36,496 nucleotides of DNA from contig JAAYFU010000003.1 in the NCBI GenBank assembly GCA_012728095.1, positions 1 through 36,496 on the forward strand. The letters run 5' to 3'. Of the stretch, positions 22,023 to 26,932 are shown piece after piece. This DNA is from Clostridiaceae bacterium (GTDB lineage Bacteria > Bacillota > Clostridia > DSM-8532). Every line of letters begins with the position of its first letter. Position 1 is the first letter of the stretch. The notes beneath the pieces are model-generated. The model worked only from the letters and a program-made list of their open reading frames with translations. It was not told where the DNA came from and did no database searches. Made by a program: the position numbers and the translations under genes.

Positions 22023-22209
22023 GTAAGGTTGGTATATACGATACATTCCCTGTCGCCGGAGTGAGCATGGATATATATAGCCGTTAAAACAGCGGCAGGG
22101 AGAAATAATATTTTAACGTTGCAATTCAGGAGAAAATGTGAACGCCACTATAATTTTTGTTAATAAATTGTTAGAATGATACTGACCAGATCTTTCGGAG
22201 GTGTATTTA

Positions 22210-22524
22210 ATGTTTGAGTTAAACACTGAAAGTAATGACGGTAAGAATGTTGTTATTTCAGTAAAAGGTGAAATCGATATCTACTCGGCGCCGGATTTCA
22301 AGGAAAGTCTTTATCAGTCCATTAACGATGTTCAACAAAATATAATTCTGGATTTCAGCGATTTGTCCTACATAGACAGTATGGGGTTGGGAATTTTAGT
22401 GGGAGCATTAAAGCGTGTCAGGGAAAAAGACCGTAATATAACGATAAAAAACCCCAAAAGCACGGTACGAAAATTATTTAGGATTACCGGTCTGGACAAG
22501 GCGTTCATCATTGAGGAGGTCTAA
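22210..22524 (+). CDS. Anti-sigma factor antagonist, RsbV-like (STAS domain)
   Basis: 104 residues. A STAS-domain protein of the RsbV/SpoIIAA family. In such partner switches the unphosphorylated antagonist binds the anti-sigma kinase and frees the sigma factor. The phosphorylation site is Ser57 in YIDSMGLGIL, matching RsbV. Start at 22210, where GGAGGTG lies 6 bp upstream; the longer frame begins with a GTG inside that site. It is the first gene of rsbV-rsbW-sigma, with 3 bp to the next start and its ribosome binding site in the end of this gene. The order and the closely similar next genes point to a SigB-type rather than a SpoIIA module. Confidence 0.92.
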   Translation: MFELNTESNDGKNVVISVKGEIDIYSAPDFKESLYQSINDVQQNIILDFSDLSYIDSMGLGILVGALKRVREKDRNITIKNPKSTVRKLFRITGLDKAFIIEEV

Positions 22525-22527
22525 ATA

Positions 22528-22914
22528 ATGAGTACTATGGACACGATTACCATGCTTATTCCACTAAAAGCGGAATATGTAAGTATTGCCCGTTTAACGG
22601 TTTCAGGAATTGCCAGCAGGATGGGGTTTGACATAGATACTATTGAAGATATAAAAGTTGCACTGTCTGAAATATTGGGAAAGTTTATTGAAAAGAAGTC
22701 AGGCACAGGGAGAGTAAATGTAGATTTTCAGTGCCTTGAAGATGGAATTTCAATAAAATTCAAGATTTCGGATCAGAGTATTCCCGAATTGTTTGACAAC
22801 GATACCGATAAATTTGCCTTGGCTATTATAAGCTCACTTATGGACGAAATAGAGATTGAAAAACAGGGAGATAACTCTATTACAATGGTAAAAAAGCTCG
22901 GAAAGGCAGTTTAA
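22528..22914 (+). CDS. RsbW-like anti-sigma factor with degenerate ATP site
   Basis: 128 residues. Overall pattern matches RsbW (IKVALSEIL for the N-box helix, SLMDEIEIEKQGDNSITMVKKL for the C-terminal strand pair). The ATP-binding residues are lost: the N-box has Glu48 but Lys52 where Asn is required, the DxGxG loop reads SDQSIP, and the Gly-rich GGLGL segment reads DKFALAI. It may still bind sigma and antagonist but is unlikely to be a kinase. Overlapping translation signals on both sides (3 bp and 1 bp gaps) imply tight co-expression. Compare the intact paralogue at 23757. Confidence 0.85.
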   Translation: MSTMDTITMLIPLKAEYVSIARLTVSGIASRMGFDIDTIEDIKVALSEILGKFIEKKSGTGRVNVDFQCLEDGISIKFKISDQSIPELFDNDTDKFALAIISSLMDEIEIEKQGDNSITMVKKLGKAV

Positions 22915-22915
22915 A

Positions 22916-23674
22916 ATGAGCAAGAAGGCAGAGACAATAAGAACTGAAGAAATGTCCGAAAGAGAATTGTTTGAATTGTATTACGAAAACAGGGATGTTG
23001 AGATTCGCAATCAGATAGTATCAAAATTCATGTATCTTGCCGATATCATTTCAAAAAAATTTGCAAACCGTGGAGTAGATTGCGATGACATCTATCAGGT
23101 GGCATGTCTCGCTCTGATTAATGCTGTTGAAAGGTTTAACATTCATGAAGATGTTAAATTTGTCAGTTTTGCAACACCGACAATTATAGGCGAAATAAAG
23201 CGCTATTTCAGAGATAAAGCTTCAGTTATCCGTATACCAAGACGAATATATGAGGTATACCAAAAAGTCAATCAGGCAAGAGAATACCTGATGCAGAAAT
23301 ATAAAAGAGCTCCCAGGATAGATGAAATAGCTGATTATCTCAAAATGAAGGAAGAAACCATACTTGAAATAATAGAATCATGGAATGTTTATAATATACA
23401 GTCTTTTGATCAGTCTGTCTTTGATGAAGACAATCTTGAACTGCATGAAACAGTGGGGGAAGAGGACGATACCTTTGAAAAGATAAATAATCGTGATTTT
23501 CTTGAAAAAGCCATGAACAATTTTAGCGATACTGAAAAAGAATTCATAAAGCTTCGCTTTTTTGACAATAAAACCCAAAAAGAGATTGCAAATCATTTCC
23601 ATGTTTCACAGATGTACATATCTCGTTTAGAAAAAAAGACACTGGAAAAATTCAGAATGATTTTAAGGAAGTAA
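22916..23674 (+). CDS. RNA polymerase sigma factor, SigB/SigF/SigG subfamily
   Basis: 252 residues. Region 2 spans about residues 30-110 with GVDCDDIYQVACLALINAVE and SFATPTIIGEIKRYFRDKA, typical of the SigB/F/G group. Region 3 (about 115-175) and region 4 follow; the latter has FSDTEKEFIKLRFFDNKTQKEIA and a helix-turn-helix, HVSQMYISRLEKKTLEKF. The position behind rsbV-rsbW is that of sigB. SpoIIA operons have the same architecture, but the adjacent degenerate RsbW and the second kinase argue for a SigB-like general stress sigma. Which genes it controls is unknown; a candidate promoter stands at the end of this gene. Confidence 0.9.
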   Translation: MSKKAETIRTEEMSERELFELYYENRDVEIRNQIVSKFMYLADIISKKFANRGVDCDDIYQVACLALINAVERFNIHEDVKFVSFATPTIIGEIKRYFRDKASVIRIPRRIYEVYQKVNQAREYLMQKYKRAPRIDEIADYLKMKEETILEIIESWNVYNIQSFDQSVFDEDNLELHETVGEEDDTFEKINNRDFLEKAMNNFSDTEKEFIKLRFFDNKTQKEIANHFHVSQMYISRLEKKTLEKFRMILRK

Positions 23675-23684
23675 AACAGGGTAT
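23661..23684 (+). promoter_or_regulatory. Candidate sigma-B-type promoter
   Basis: TTTTAA (23661-23666), 12 bp, GGGTAT (23679-23684), matching the Bacillus sigma-B consensus GTTTAA-N12-15-GGGTAT at 11 of 12 positions. It overlaps the last codons of the sigma gene and would drive the intact kinase gene at 23757. Confidence 0.45.
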
Positions 23685-23685
23685 A

Positions 23686-23705
23686 TATTTTATGTACATA
23701 AAATA
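23686..23705. promoter_or_regulatory. Perfect 20-bp palindrome at the predicted start of the kinase transcript
   Basis: TATTTTATGT and its exact reverse complement abut with no spacer. It spans the expected transcription start of the candidate sigma-B promoter. No T-run follows, so an operator is more likely than a terminator. Confidence 0.6.
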
Positions 23706-23756
23706 AAATGCTATTAGTTTTTTACTTTTGCGTGTGCATTTGGAGGTAATATTGTT

Positions 23757-24206
23757 ATGCACATAGATCAAAGCAGGTACACGAAAATATATAGCAAAGA
23801 CATCGCGACTGACGCTTACCTGGTATGCAATGAAATCAGAAAAATAATGGATTTGCTCAAGATAAAATTTTCCCTTGATTCAGATAAATGTTTTGATATT
23901 AAGGTTATTCTGGGCGAATTAATGCAAAACTCTATCAAGCACGGGAATGAATGCGATAAAAGTAAAACTATCAGTGTGGAAATATGGTTCAAGGATGACA
24001 GCAGGATTCTCGGTATAACTGTAAAGGATCAGGGTTGCGGTTTTAAGGTGCCCGAGCCGAAGCAGCTATCCATGAGCAAAGTATCAAAATGTGATCCGCT
24101 TAATATGGACGAATCGGGAAGAGGATTGCTCATAGTAAATGAATTATGTGACAGTATGAAATTCAACAGCGTGGGAAATGCTATTACCGTAATGAAAAGG
24201 ATTTAG
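23757..24206 (+). CDS. RsbW-type anti-sigma serine kinase (intact HATPase)
   Basis: 149 residues. A GHKL-fold ATPase of the RsbW/SpoIIAB class with all motifs present: N-box GELMQNSIKHG (Glu54, Asn58, His62), G1 box KDQGCGF (Asp91, Gly93, Gly95) and G2 SGRGLLIVNEL (120-130). It should phosphorylate a STAS antagonist, presumably the one at 22210. GGAGGT stands about 8 bp upstream. It is separated from the sigma gene by 82 bp that contain a sigma-B-like promoter and a palindrome, so it may be expressed separately from the first three genes. It could alternatively be a general HATPase regulator of another partner switch. Confidence 0.88.
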   Translation: MHIDQSRYTKIYSKDIATDAYLVCNEIRKIMDLLKIKFSLDSDKCFDIKVILGELMQNSIKHGNECDKSKTISVEIWFKDDSRILGITVKDQGCGFKVPEPKQLSMSKVSKCDPLNMDESGRGLLIVNELCDSMKFNSVGNAITVMKRI

Positions 24207-24577: not shown

Positions 24578-26932
24578 ATGATGAAATGTTCAATATGTAA
24601 GGAAAATGTCGCAGTCGTGTTTATTACACGTGTAATAGATGGAAAAGCCGAGCCTATGGGTCTTTGCATAAGCTGTGCCCAAAAACAGGGCTTGGCTCCG
24701 TTGCAGCAAATAATAGCTCAGTCCGGTATGACCCAGGAGGATCTTGAGAATTTAAACAACCAGATGTCCGAAATTCTTGGATCCATGAACATGGATGAAT
24801 TCTTACAAAATCTTCCGCATGCAAATAATTCGCATGATGATGAAGATAACATGGGAAATTCCATGCTTCGTTTTTTTAACAATGCTTTTTCAAAATTCGG
24901 TCCGTCGACTGATGAAGACAAGGAAAAGCATTCCCATAAGCAGACAAAGAACGTTGATCCAAGACAACAGGGCAGATCCCCCAGGAAAAACCTTAATGCT
25001 TTTGGAACAAACCTTAATGAGAAAGCCATGTCAGGGCAAATTGACCGTATCATAGGCAGAGATAAGGAGATTGAACGGGTAATACAGATTCTGAACCGCA
25101 GAACGAAAAATAACCCTGTTCTTGTAGGAGAGCCGGGTGTTGGGAAAACTGCCATAGCAGAGGGACTGGCTCTGCGTATAGTGGAGAATAATGTGCCGCC
25201 GAAGCTTTTGGATAAGGAAATTTATCTGCTCGACCTTGCCGCTATTGTAGCCGGAACACAATTCAGAGGCCAATTTGAGGCCCGAATGAAAGCTATAATT
25301 GACGAAGCTAAAGCACAGAAAAATATTATTCTGGTAATCGACGAGGTTCATAATATTGTGGGTGCCGGTGAAGCTGAAGGCGGAGCAATGAATGCGGCAA
25401 ATATTCTCAAGCCCGCGCTGGCAAGAGGTGACGTACAGATTATTGGCGCTACTACCCTGGAGGATTACAGAAAGTATATTGAAAAGGATGCGGCTTTGGA
25501 AAGACGGTTCCAGCCGGTTATGGTCAATGAGCCTACCATTGAAGAAAGTATTGAAATACTTATGGGCTTAAGGCCGTATTATGAGGATTTTCACCAGGTG
25601 CGCTACCCGGATGAGGTAATTGAAAGCGCCGTAAAACTGTCATCACGGTATATAAGCGACAGGTTCCTGCCTGACAAGGCAATTGACGTTATTGATGAAG
25701 CAGGTTCCAGGGTGAATTTGAGAAACGCCAATTTCATTGAGCTGGAAAAGTGTAAGAATCAGCTCAAGAAAGTCCAGGAATTGAAGGAAAAGGCCGCAAT
25801 AATGGATGACTATAAGAAAGCTGCCGACTATAAAGTAGAGGAATGCAGGCTTCTGGAAAAGATCAAGGAACTGGAGAAAGATCTTGGCAACCTGGATGTA
25901 ACGGTAGACGATGTTGCTTATGTAGTAGAAAGCTGGACCGGAATACCTGTGCAGAGAATATCCGAAACGGAGGCATCCAAGCTTTTGAAGCTTGAAGAAC
26001 GTCTCCATAAGAGAGTGGTAGGCCAGGATAAGGCTGTTTCTGCTTTAGCCAGGGCCATCAGGAGAACACGTTCCGATTTTGTCAAAAGAAAGAGACCACC
26101 CAGCTTCATATTTGTCGGGCCTACCGGAGTAGGAAAGACAGAGCTGGCCAAGGTTCTCACCTACGAGCTTTTTGGCAGTGAAGATGCCATGATAAGGCTT
26201 GATATGTCCGAATACATGGAGAAACATACCGTTTCAAAACTAATAGGCGCGCCTCCCGGATATATAGGGTATGATCAGGGTGGTCAGCTGACTGAAAAAG
26301 TGAGGAGAAAACCATATTCGGTAATTCTTCTTGACGAAATAGAAAAAGCTCACCCCGATGTTTTTAATATGCTTCTACAGATTATGGAGGACGGCCGCCT
26401 GACCGACAGCACGGGTAGAACGGTAAGTTTTGAGAATACTATTCTGATTATGACCTCAAACGCGGGAACCAACCTTAAATCACACGGTATCGGTTTTAAT
26501 AATGACGGATACGAGGCTCTTGAGAAGAAGGTTAATAATGCGATGAGGGAGATATTCAGACCTGAGTTTTTAAACAGGGTAGATGAGATAATAGTATTTG
26601 AACCGCTTACCCGCAAGCAGTTGGCCCAGATTCTTGATATTATGCTGGATCAAATCACGCAGGATGTAAAAGAAAAGGGAATGAGCATCTCGTTTGATGA
26701 TAAGGCGAAAGAGTTCCTGATTGAAAAAGGCTACGATGAGAAATATGGAGCAAGGCCATTAAGAAAAACAATACAAAGGCATATTGAAGATGAGCTGTCA
26801 GAGCTGTATTTAGCCGGAAAAATCCGTGAAGGAAGCAGCATTCAGGTTTCAGTTGAAGACGGGAAAATCACAATGATTGTTGTGGACCTGCCAATGCTAA
26901 AGCATGCCAATAAATTGCCGAAACTTCAATAG
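24578..26932 (+). CDS. ClpE-like AAA+ unfoldase (Clp protease ATP-binding subunit)
   Basis: 784 residues. In place of the double-repeat Clp N domain there is a short zinc finger with C4, C7, C30 and C33, as in ClpE. A low-complexity linker (about 75-145) leads to AAA+ domain 1 (Walker A GEPGVGKT 184-191, Walker B LVIDEVHN). A UVR-like coiled segment, DYKKAADYKVEECRLLEKI, precedes domain 2 (GPTGVGKTE, ILLDEIEKAHPDVFN). An IGF tripeptide (SHGIGFNND) is the loop that docks on ClpP, so it should act with the protease. ClpC is the alternative name, but the zinc finger favours ClpE. No ctsR, mcsA or mcsB is adjacent. It has its own promoter and lies behind the sigma module, which may place it in the stress response. 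Confidence 0.9.
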   Translation: MMKCSICKENVAVVFITRVIDGKAEPMGLCISCAQKQGLAPLQQIIAQSGMTQEDLENLNNQMSEILGSMNMDEFLQNLPHANNSHDDEDNMGNSMLRFFNNAFSKFGPSTDEDKEKHSHKQTKNVDPRQQGRSPRKNLNAFGTNLNEKAMSGQIDRIIGRDKEIERVIQILNRRTKNNPVLVGEPGVGKTAIAEGLALRIVENNVPPKLLDKEIYLLDLAAIVAGTQFRGQFEARMKAIIDEAKAQKNIILVIDEVHNIVGAGEAEGGAMNAANILKPALARGDVQIIGATTLEDYRKYIEKDAALERRFQPVMVNEPTIEESIEILMGLRPYYEDFHQVRYPDEVIESAVKLSSRYISDRFLPDKAIDVIDEAGSRVNLRNANFIELEKCKNQLKKVQELKEKAAIMDDYKKAADYKVEECRLLEKIKELEKDLGNLDVTVDDVAYVVESWTGIPVQRISETEASKLLKLEERLHKRVVGQDKAVSALARAIRRTRSDFVKRKRPPSFIFVGPTGVGKTELAKVLTYELFGSEDAMIRLDMSEYMEKHTVSKLIGAPPGYIGYDQGGQLTEKVRRKPYSVILLDEIEKAHPDVFNMLLQIMEDGRLTDSTGRTVSFENTILIMTSNAGTNLKSHGIGFNNDGYEALEKKVNNAMREIFRPEFLNRVDEIIVFEPLTRKQLAQILDIMLDQITQDVKEKGMSISFDDKAKEFLIEKGYDEKYGARPLRKTIQRHIEDELSELYLAGKIREGSSIQVSVEDGKITMIVVDLPMLKHANKLPKLQ

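Follow-up and report, generated by a model that had tools for sequence, protein, structure and literature searches.

A Clostridial Sigma-Factor Operon in Which the Two Functions of RsbW Are Probably Divided Between Two Proteins

Introduction

A sigma-factor operon of a Clostridiaceae bacterium (contig JAAYFU010000003.1 of assembly GCA_012728095.1) encodes two proteins that resemble RsbW, one on either side of the sigma-factor gene. This raises the question of which of them holds the sigma factor, and which of them phosphorylates the antagonist RsbV. The window, that is the whole stretch of DNA that was analysed, comprises 36,496 nucleotides, and the following features are considered here:

22210-22524, + strand: rsbV, anti-sigma antagonist of the STAS type, phospho-acceptor Ser57 conserved (YIDSMGLG)
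22528-22914, + strand: rsbW1 (protein W1), RsbW-like anti-sigma factor without ATP-site motifs
22916-23674, + strand: sigma gene, sigma factor of the SigB/F/G subfamily (TIGR02980)
23659-23684, + strand: SigB-type promoter-like site before rsbW2, GATTTT (23659-23664) and GGGTAT (23679-23684)
23757-24206, + strand: rsbW2 (protein W2), GHKL serine-kinase protein with intact motifs, predicted to phosphorylate RsbV

The Operon and Its Surroundings

The four open reading frames lie on the + strand where the initial annotation placed them, with rsbV, rsbW, and the sigma gene in the canonical order. The ATG start codon of rsbV is found behind a GGAGGT, and there is an in-frame GTG at 22201. W1 and sigma are separated by 1 bp, sigma and W2 by 82 bp. 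The order rsbV-W1-sigma-W2 is common to all loci of the family that were read, contig ends aside, and the nearest annotated records that were found come from draft genomes carrying the labels Clostridiaceae, Ruminiclostridium sp., and Thermoclostridium sp. Downstream of the operon, at 24578-26932 of the window, the window encodes an AAA+ ATPase that is ClpC/ClpE-like and has an N-terminal segment resembling a zinc finger. In Bacillus, the SigB targets include Clp genes.

RsbV matches the STAS domain (1.9e-23) and scores above the cutoff of TIGR00377 (87.3 against 53.45 bits). Ser57 is invariant in its orthologues, and the phospho-acceptor serine is kept at every locus in the class that has an RsbV; a kinase should therefore be needed. 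The sigma factor had been described as SigB-type. This holds at the subfamily level, where it reaches 239.5 bits against a cutoff of 234.35 for TIGR02980 (SigBFG), but not at the level of the SigB equivalog TIGR02941 (181.8 against 315 bits).

An RsbW-Like Protein Without a Kinase Site

W1 is recognizable as a relative of RsbW mainly through its N-terminal two thirds or so. Residues 2-84 match NF003144 (1.5e-24), while residues 5-85 match the RsbW structure PDB 6m36 (1.6e-14). The scores nevertheless stay below the RsbW equivalog cutoffs, with 83.3 bits against 155.05 for TIGR01924 and 86.2 against 145 for NF003144. The AlphaFold model (pLDDT 85) has B. subtilis RsbW (6m37) as its top match, with an E-value of 4.6e-11 and TM-scores of 0.81/0.89.

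Where SpoIIAB and RsbW have SEAxTN in the N-box region, W1 has SEILGK, so that the N-box asparagine is gone. The protein also lacks the Gly-x-Gly of DxGxG, the G2 loop, and the ATP lid, and only 76 residues follow the N-box position, compared to 90 in SpoIIAB. The initial annotation had listed the N-box asparagine, the DxGxG motif, and the Gly-rich loop as lost, and this was borne out both for W1 itself and for every aligned orthologue of the family, none of which has an intact ATP site. Alignment of the orthologous operons shows that the W1-W2 pair is conserved through the family with its order kept. W1 is found in 31 of 32 family genomes, and the dN/dS ratio of rsbW1 is about 0.05-0.2, similar to that of the neighbouring genes and indicating strong constraint. 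Chance, a sequencing error, or a recent decay of the gene is thereby ruled out.

The invariant residues in the W1 proteins of the family (P12, K14, Y17, R22, L23, S26, G27, G33, F34, D35, D37, E40, D41, K43, V44, S47, and E48) are concentrated in the first two helices; the helices that bind sigma and antagonist are kept. According to the alignment, R22 and K43 of W1 correspond to Arg20 and Lys41 of SpoIIAB, and the lost asparagine corresponds to Asn50. In SpoIIAB, Arg20 and Lys41 mediate the contact with the sigma factor, while Asn50 participates in chelation of the Mg ion (PMC10345196). The Arg20 equivalent is an arginine in all W1 proteins, intact or degenerate, and is variable in W2. W1 is predicted to bind both sigma and RsbV; of the contact residues, the equivalents of Arg20 and Lys41 were seen to be retained.

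The Second RsbW-Like Protein

W2 was said to retain all of the motifs missing from W1, and it does: GELMQNSIKHGN, VKDQGCGF, and ESGRGLLIV are all present, and the protein matches HATPase_c_2 with 3.7e-16. The N-box, DxGxGF, and GRGLxIV are invariant among the W2 proteins (sets A2 and A4). W2 falls under the equivalog cutoffs of both spIIAB (41.7 against 135 bits) and RsbW (35.3 against 145 bits), and its structural model matches a Leptospira regulator (9qih), SpoIIAB, and RsbW. In the phylogenetic tree the W2 proteins, whether encoded in the operon or unlinked to it, form one clade apart from all W1 proteins and SpoIIAB (SH-aLRT 99). This clade also takes in one other kinase, L262. Since W2 is a single clade apart from W1, it is not a lineage-specific copy of W1, and a recent duplication of W1 is ruled out by the tree. 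Its motifs, its co-occurrence with degenerate W1, and the mycobacterial precedent make W2 the predicted RsbV kinase.

Distribution of the Two Proteins in the Class

The class was surveyed with a W1 profile, run against 391 genomes, and a further 80 loci were read. When W1 was sorted by four motif elements, a clean split between intact and degenerate forms was obtained. Downstream W2 genes were counted for loci with more than 600 bp past sigma. None of the 18 loci with an intact W1 has a W2 downstream of sigma, as against 69 of the 82 with a degenerate W1 (Fisher p 6.7e-12, a value that overstates the case because related genomes are not independent). Several apparent counter-examples, with a degenerate W1 and no W2, were rejected; L129, L134, and L139 have N runs in or just after sigma, and L032, L049, L160, and L191 are cut by contig ends. 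Without L129 and L134, where the N runs follow directly after sigma, the proportion is 69 of 80. Of the 11 loci left over, eight belong to families f32 and f47, which have a W2 elsewhere in the genome, and three to family f3.

An unlinked W2 was found in all nine f32/f47 genomes first checked, one of these with a shorter flank, and in nine further f32 genomes, giving 18. In most of the cases read it lies between engB/ysxC and typA (L201 and L203-L208 are near these genes). Conversely, a W2 of at least 80 bits was found in none of the 21 genomes with an intact W1, at any position. Three of these genomes have matches of 65-71 bits; two of them are SpoIIAB, while the one in genome G290 is a different kinase beside another STAS gene. 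In this genome the separate STAS gene adjoins the small GHKL kinase gene (L262:1540-2261, - strand), and the sigB operon has an intact RsbW.

In family f3 (L189, L190, and L192) W1 is partly degraded; the N-box region is partly kept and the glycines are lost. RsbV was not found in the six f3 genomes searched, nor was W2 found in the genomes containing L189, L190, and L192. This family possibly represents a third route, leading to an anti-sigma factor without any phospho-switch.

The Promoter-Like Site before rsbW2

The region before W2 contains a core that resembles the SigB consensus and has the form GTTTA…GGGTA. In the window the -35 part, GATTTT, overlaps the 3' end of the sigma coding sequence. 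Ten congeners share an invariant GGGTATATA immediately after the stop codon of sigma, while the rest of the spacer drifts. The GGGTA core is found in 25 of 28 loci of the window's family, where 5.1 would be expected; the -35 part is poorer, also in the window's own genus. Among 42 other loci of the class, 21 have the strict pattern GTTT-N14-16-GGGTA between sigma and W2, against 0.17 expected from shuffles, and one has it upstream of rsbV. About half of the class loci are thus without a strict promoter before W2. The strict pattern was seen downstream of sigma in none of 21 intact loci. All 13 upstream regions of unlinked W2 genes contain the core, where 2.1 would be expected, and in 12 it lies 25-48 bp ahead of the start codon. 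Right behind the promoter-like site of the window there is a perfect 20-nt palindrome, TATTTTATGTACATAAAATA, at 23686-23705, for which no conservation was found in the congeners.

Most simply, this would mean that the kinase gene is transcribed by the sigma factor that the kinase serves, and the promoter core on W2 points to a negative feedback on the kinase. Genome-wide, the pattern was not enriched over the reversed control. For this reason no regulon is claimed, and the proposal that sigma reads W2 is based on the position and conservation of the site.

Origin of the Degenerate W1

The sigma tree places the in-operon degenerate lineage in one clade (100/98) and the f32/f47 lineage among the intact systems (98/94). 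A topology holding all degenerate lineages together was not rejected by the AU test (p 0.075), and the tree of the short W1 protein groups the degenerate forms without firm support. Two separate origins of the W1 degeneration are thus favoured, but not proven. For the broader proposal, that a bifunctional RsbW has been split more than once in clostridia, each time into a kinase-dead W1 and a W2 in the operon or unlinked, with the kinase gene alone behind a sigma-type promoter in both forms, the case for and against appears evenly balanced.

Candidate Phosphatase

SpoIIE is, as noted earlier, the only PP2C protein in the window. The accompanying statement that no dedicated RsbU/RsbP phosphatase lies nearby is correct for the window, but a candidate exists on another contig of the genome (genome G000, contig C12, L015:1486-3168, - strand), where a 560-aa protein combines a MASE3 membrane sensor with a SpoIIE-type PP2C domain. 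Orthologues of this protein, or other PP2C proteins, are present in 32 of 32 family genomes. It is the natural RsbU/RsbP candidate, and it might be the phosphatase of RsbV. The assignment is a weak one because genome G008 keeps the PP2C protein and has lost RsbV, W1, sigma, and W2.

Proposed Mechanism and Alternatives

The two jobs of RsbW have probably been divided here, with W1 as the anti-sigma binder and W2 as the kinase of a subfunctionalised partner switch. W1 would hold either sigma or, alternatively, unphosphorylated RsbV, and would be unable to bind ATP or phosphorylate. Phosphorylation of the conserved serine by W2 would keep RsbV away from W1, which could then capture sigma. A PP2C protein responding to a signal, for which the unlinked MASE3-PP2C is the candidate, would dephosphorylate RsbV, which would in turn take W1 and free sigma. 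Free sigma would transcribe rsbW2 from the SigB-type promoter, and the increased kinase level would reset the switch. A negative feedback loop of this kind would run through W2, separate from the amount of anti-sigma factor. Each binding, kinase, phosphatase, and transcription step of this scheme is inferred; what the sequences provide is the loss and retention of motifs, the operon and its conservation, the complementarity of W1 and W2, the serine of RsbV, and the enrichment of the promoter core. A binding-only anti-sigma factor with a separate kinase, as opposed to the bifunctional RsbW of Bacillus, was also what the initial annotation suggested; the motifs and the class-wide complementarity support this, the activities themselves being deduced from sequence and by analogy with M. 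smegmatis.

Since GHKL proteins of this family dimerise, a mixed W1:W2 dimer is possible. The two proteins share a fold, co-occur strictly, and adjoin each other in most genomes, and they could be an obligate heterodimer in which a pseudokinase subunit holds sigma while the active subunit phosphorylates RsbV, all within one complex. We regard this as unlikely. In f32/f47 the W2 gene lies apart from the operon and is apparently regulated on its own, and even within the operon it has a promoter-like site to itself, which is ill-suited to a fixed 1:1 assembly. The M. smegmatis kinase RsbW2, for its part, does not bind SigF. A rather improbable reading is that W2 is a mere neighbour serving a different antagonist, and that RsbV is a substrate of SpoIIAB, of some other kinase, or of none. 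The genome does encode other intact small GHKL proteins, namely SpoIIAB on contig C44 and one in a hydrogenase cluster on contig C36. The STAS (PF01740) proteins found are, however, only RsbV and SpoIIAA, the presence of W2 follows the loss of the W1 kinase site throughout the class, even where W2 is unlinked, and W2 carries the SigB-type promoter core; there is thus no sign of an unrelated partner. Next to the gene of the GHKL protein on C36 (L007:129-2283, - strand) are a small DRTGG-like gene and one resembling an iron-sulphur hydrogenase.

That W1 is a decaying remnant, with W2 now doing the anti-sigma job as well as that of the kinase, seems very hard to maintain. In favour of it are the reduced length of W1 relative to RsbW, its loss of several motifs, and the full set of catalytic motifs in W2. 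Such a remnant would not be expected to be under the strong purifying selection seen for rsbW1 or to persist in nearly all family genomes. Furthermore, the Arg20-type contact residue is kept in W1 and not conserved in W2, and W2 is a clade of its own and no recent copy of W1. The division of labour between a sigma-binding W1 and a kinase W2 therefore remains the preferred reading.

One consequence concerns annotation. In many clostridia a protein taken for RsbW because of its gene order cannot act as the kinase of RsbV; the likely kinase is the gene after sigma, or an unlinked gene, often between engB and typA. A model of SigB pulsing builds on a single protein that is both sequesterer and kinase and is produced in a fixed ratio to sigma (PMC5207722). 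If the kinase gene alone sits behind a sigma-type promoter in both arrangements, homeostatic feedback would act only through phosphorylation of RsbV and could be tuned apart from the stoichiometry of the anti-sigma factor. A natural separation of both RsbW jobs, with the kinase alone apparently behind a sigma-type promoter, would offer a direct test of this design principle.

Comparison with Known Systems

The system shares with RsbV-RsbW-SigB of B. subtilis the order rsbV-rsbW-sigma, the fold of W1, the phospho-acceptor serine of RsbV, and, as proposed, a release driven by a PP2C phosphatase. It differs from those of B. subtilis and C. difficile in that their RsbW is both anti-sigma factor and kinase, whereas here W1 lacks an ATP site and there is an additional gene, that of W2; for the C. 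difficile rsbV-rsbW-sigB operon an ordinary bifunctional RsbW has been described (PMC10210984). SpoIIAA-SpoIIAB-SigF, found on contig C44 of this genome, is likewise a single operon for a STAS antagonist, a GHKL protein, and a sigma factor of the SigB/F/G subfamily. SpoIIAB, unlike W1, is a bifunctional protein with an intact ATP site, and a second kinase gene is absent. FlgM, the anti-sigma factor of the P. aeruginosa PA3346/PA3347-FlgM (HsbR/HsbA) system, is unrelated to RsbW. In that system too the anti-sigma factor is not a kinase and a separate protein phosphorylates the STAS antagonist, but there one response-regulator protein has both kinase and phosphatase activities (PMC8256260).

A close functional parallel is the SigF system of M. 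smegmatis, where RsbW1 binds SigF but is no kinase, while RsfB is phosphorylated by RsbW2 alone, a protein that does not itself bind SigF (PMC7693655). There, one RsbW homologue binds sigma and another phosphorylates a single serine of the STAS antagonist, which is what is inferred for the clostridial proteins from their motif pattern and co-occurrence, their activities being predicted. In M. smegmatis, however, the genes of the kinase and the antagonist form a pair outside the sigma operon, and a third RsbW homologue acts as an antagonist. No description of the clostridial split arrangement was found in the open-access literature; the functional division is thus already established in M. smegmatis, while the clostridial variant is apparently undescribed in the literature searched. 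The clostridial system differs from that of M. smegmatis by its arrangement as a four-gene operon or, in f32/f47, with an unlinked kinase gene, by the co-variation of W1 and W2 over many genomes, and by a SigB-type promoter, as predicted, before the kinase gene alone.
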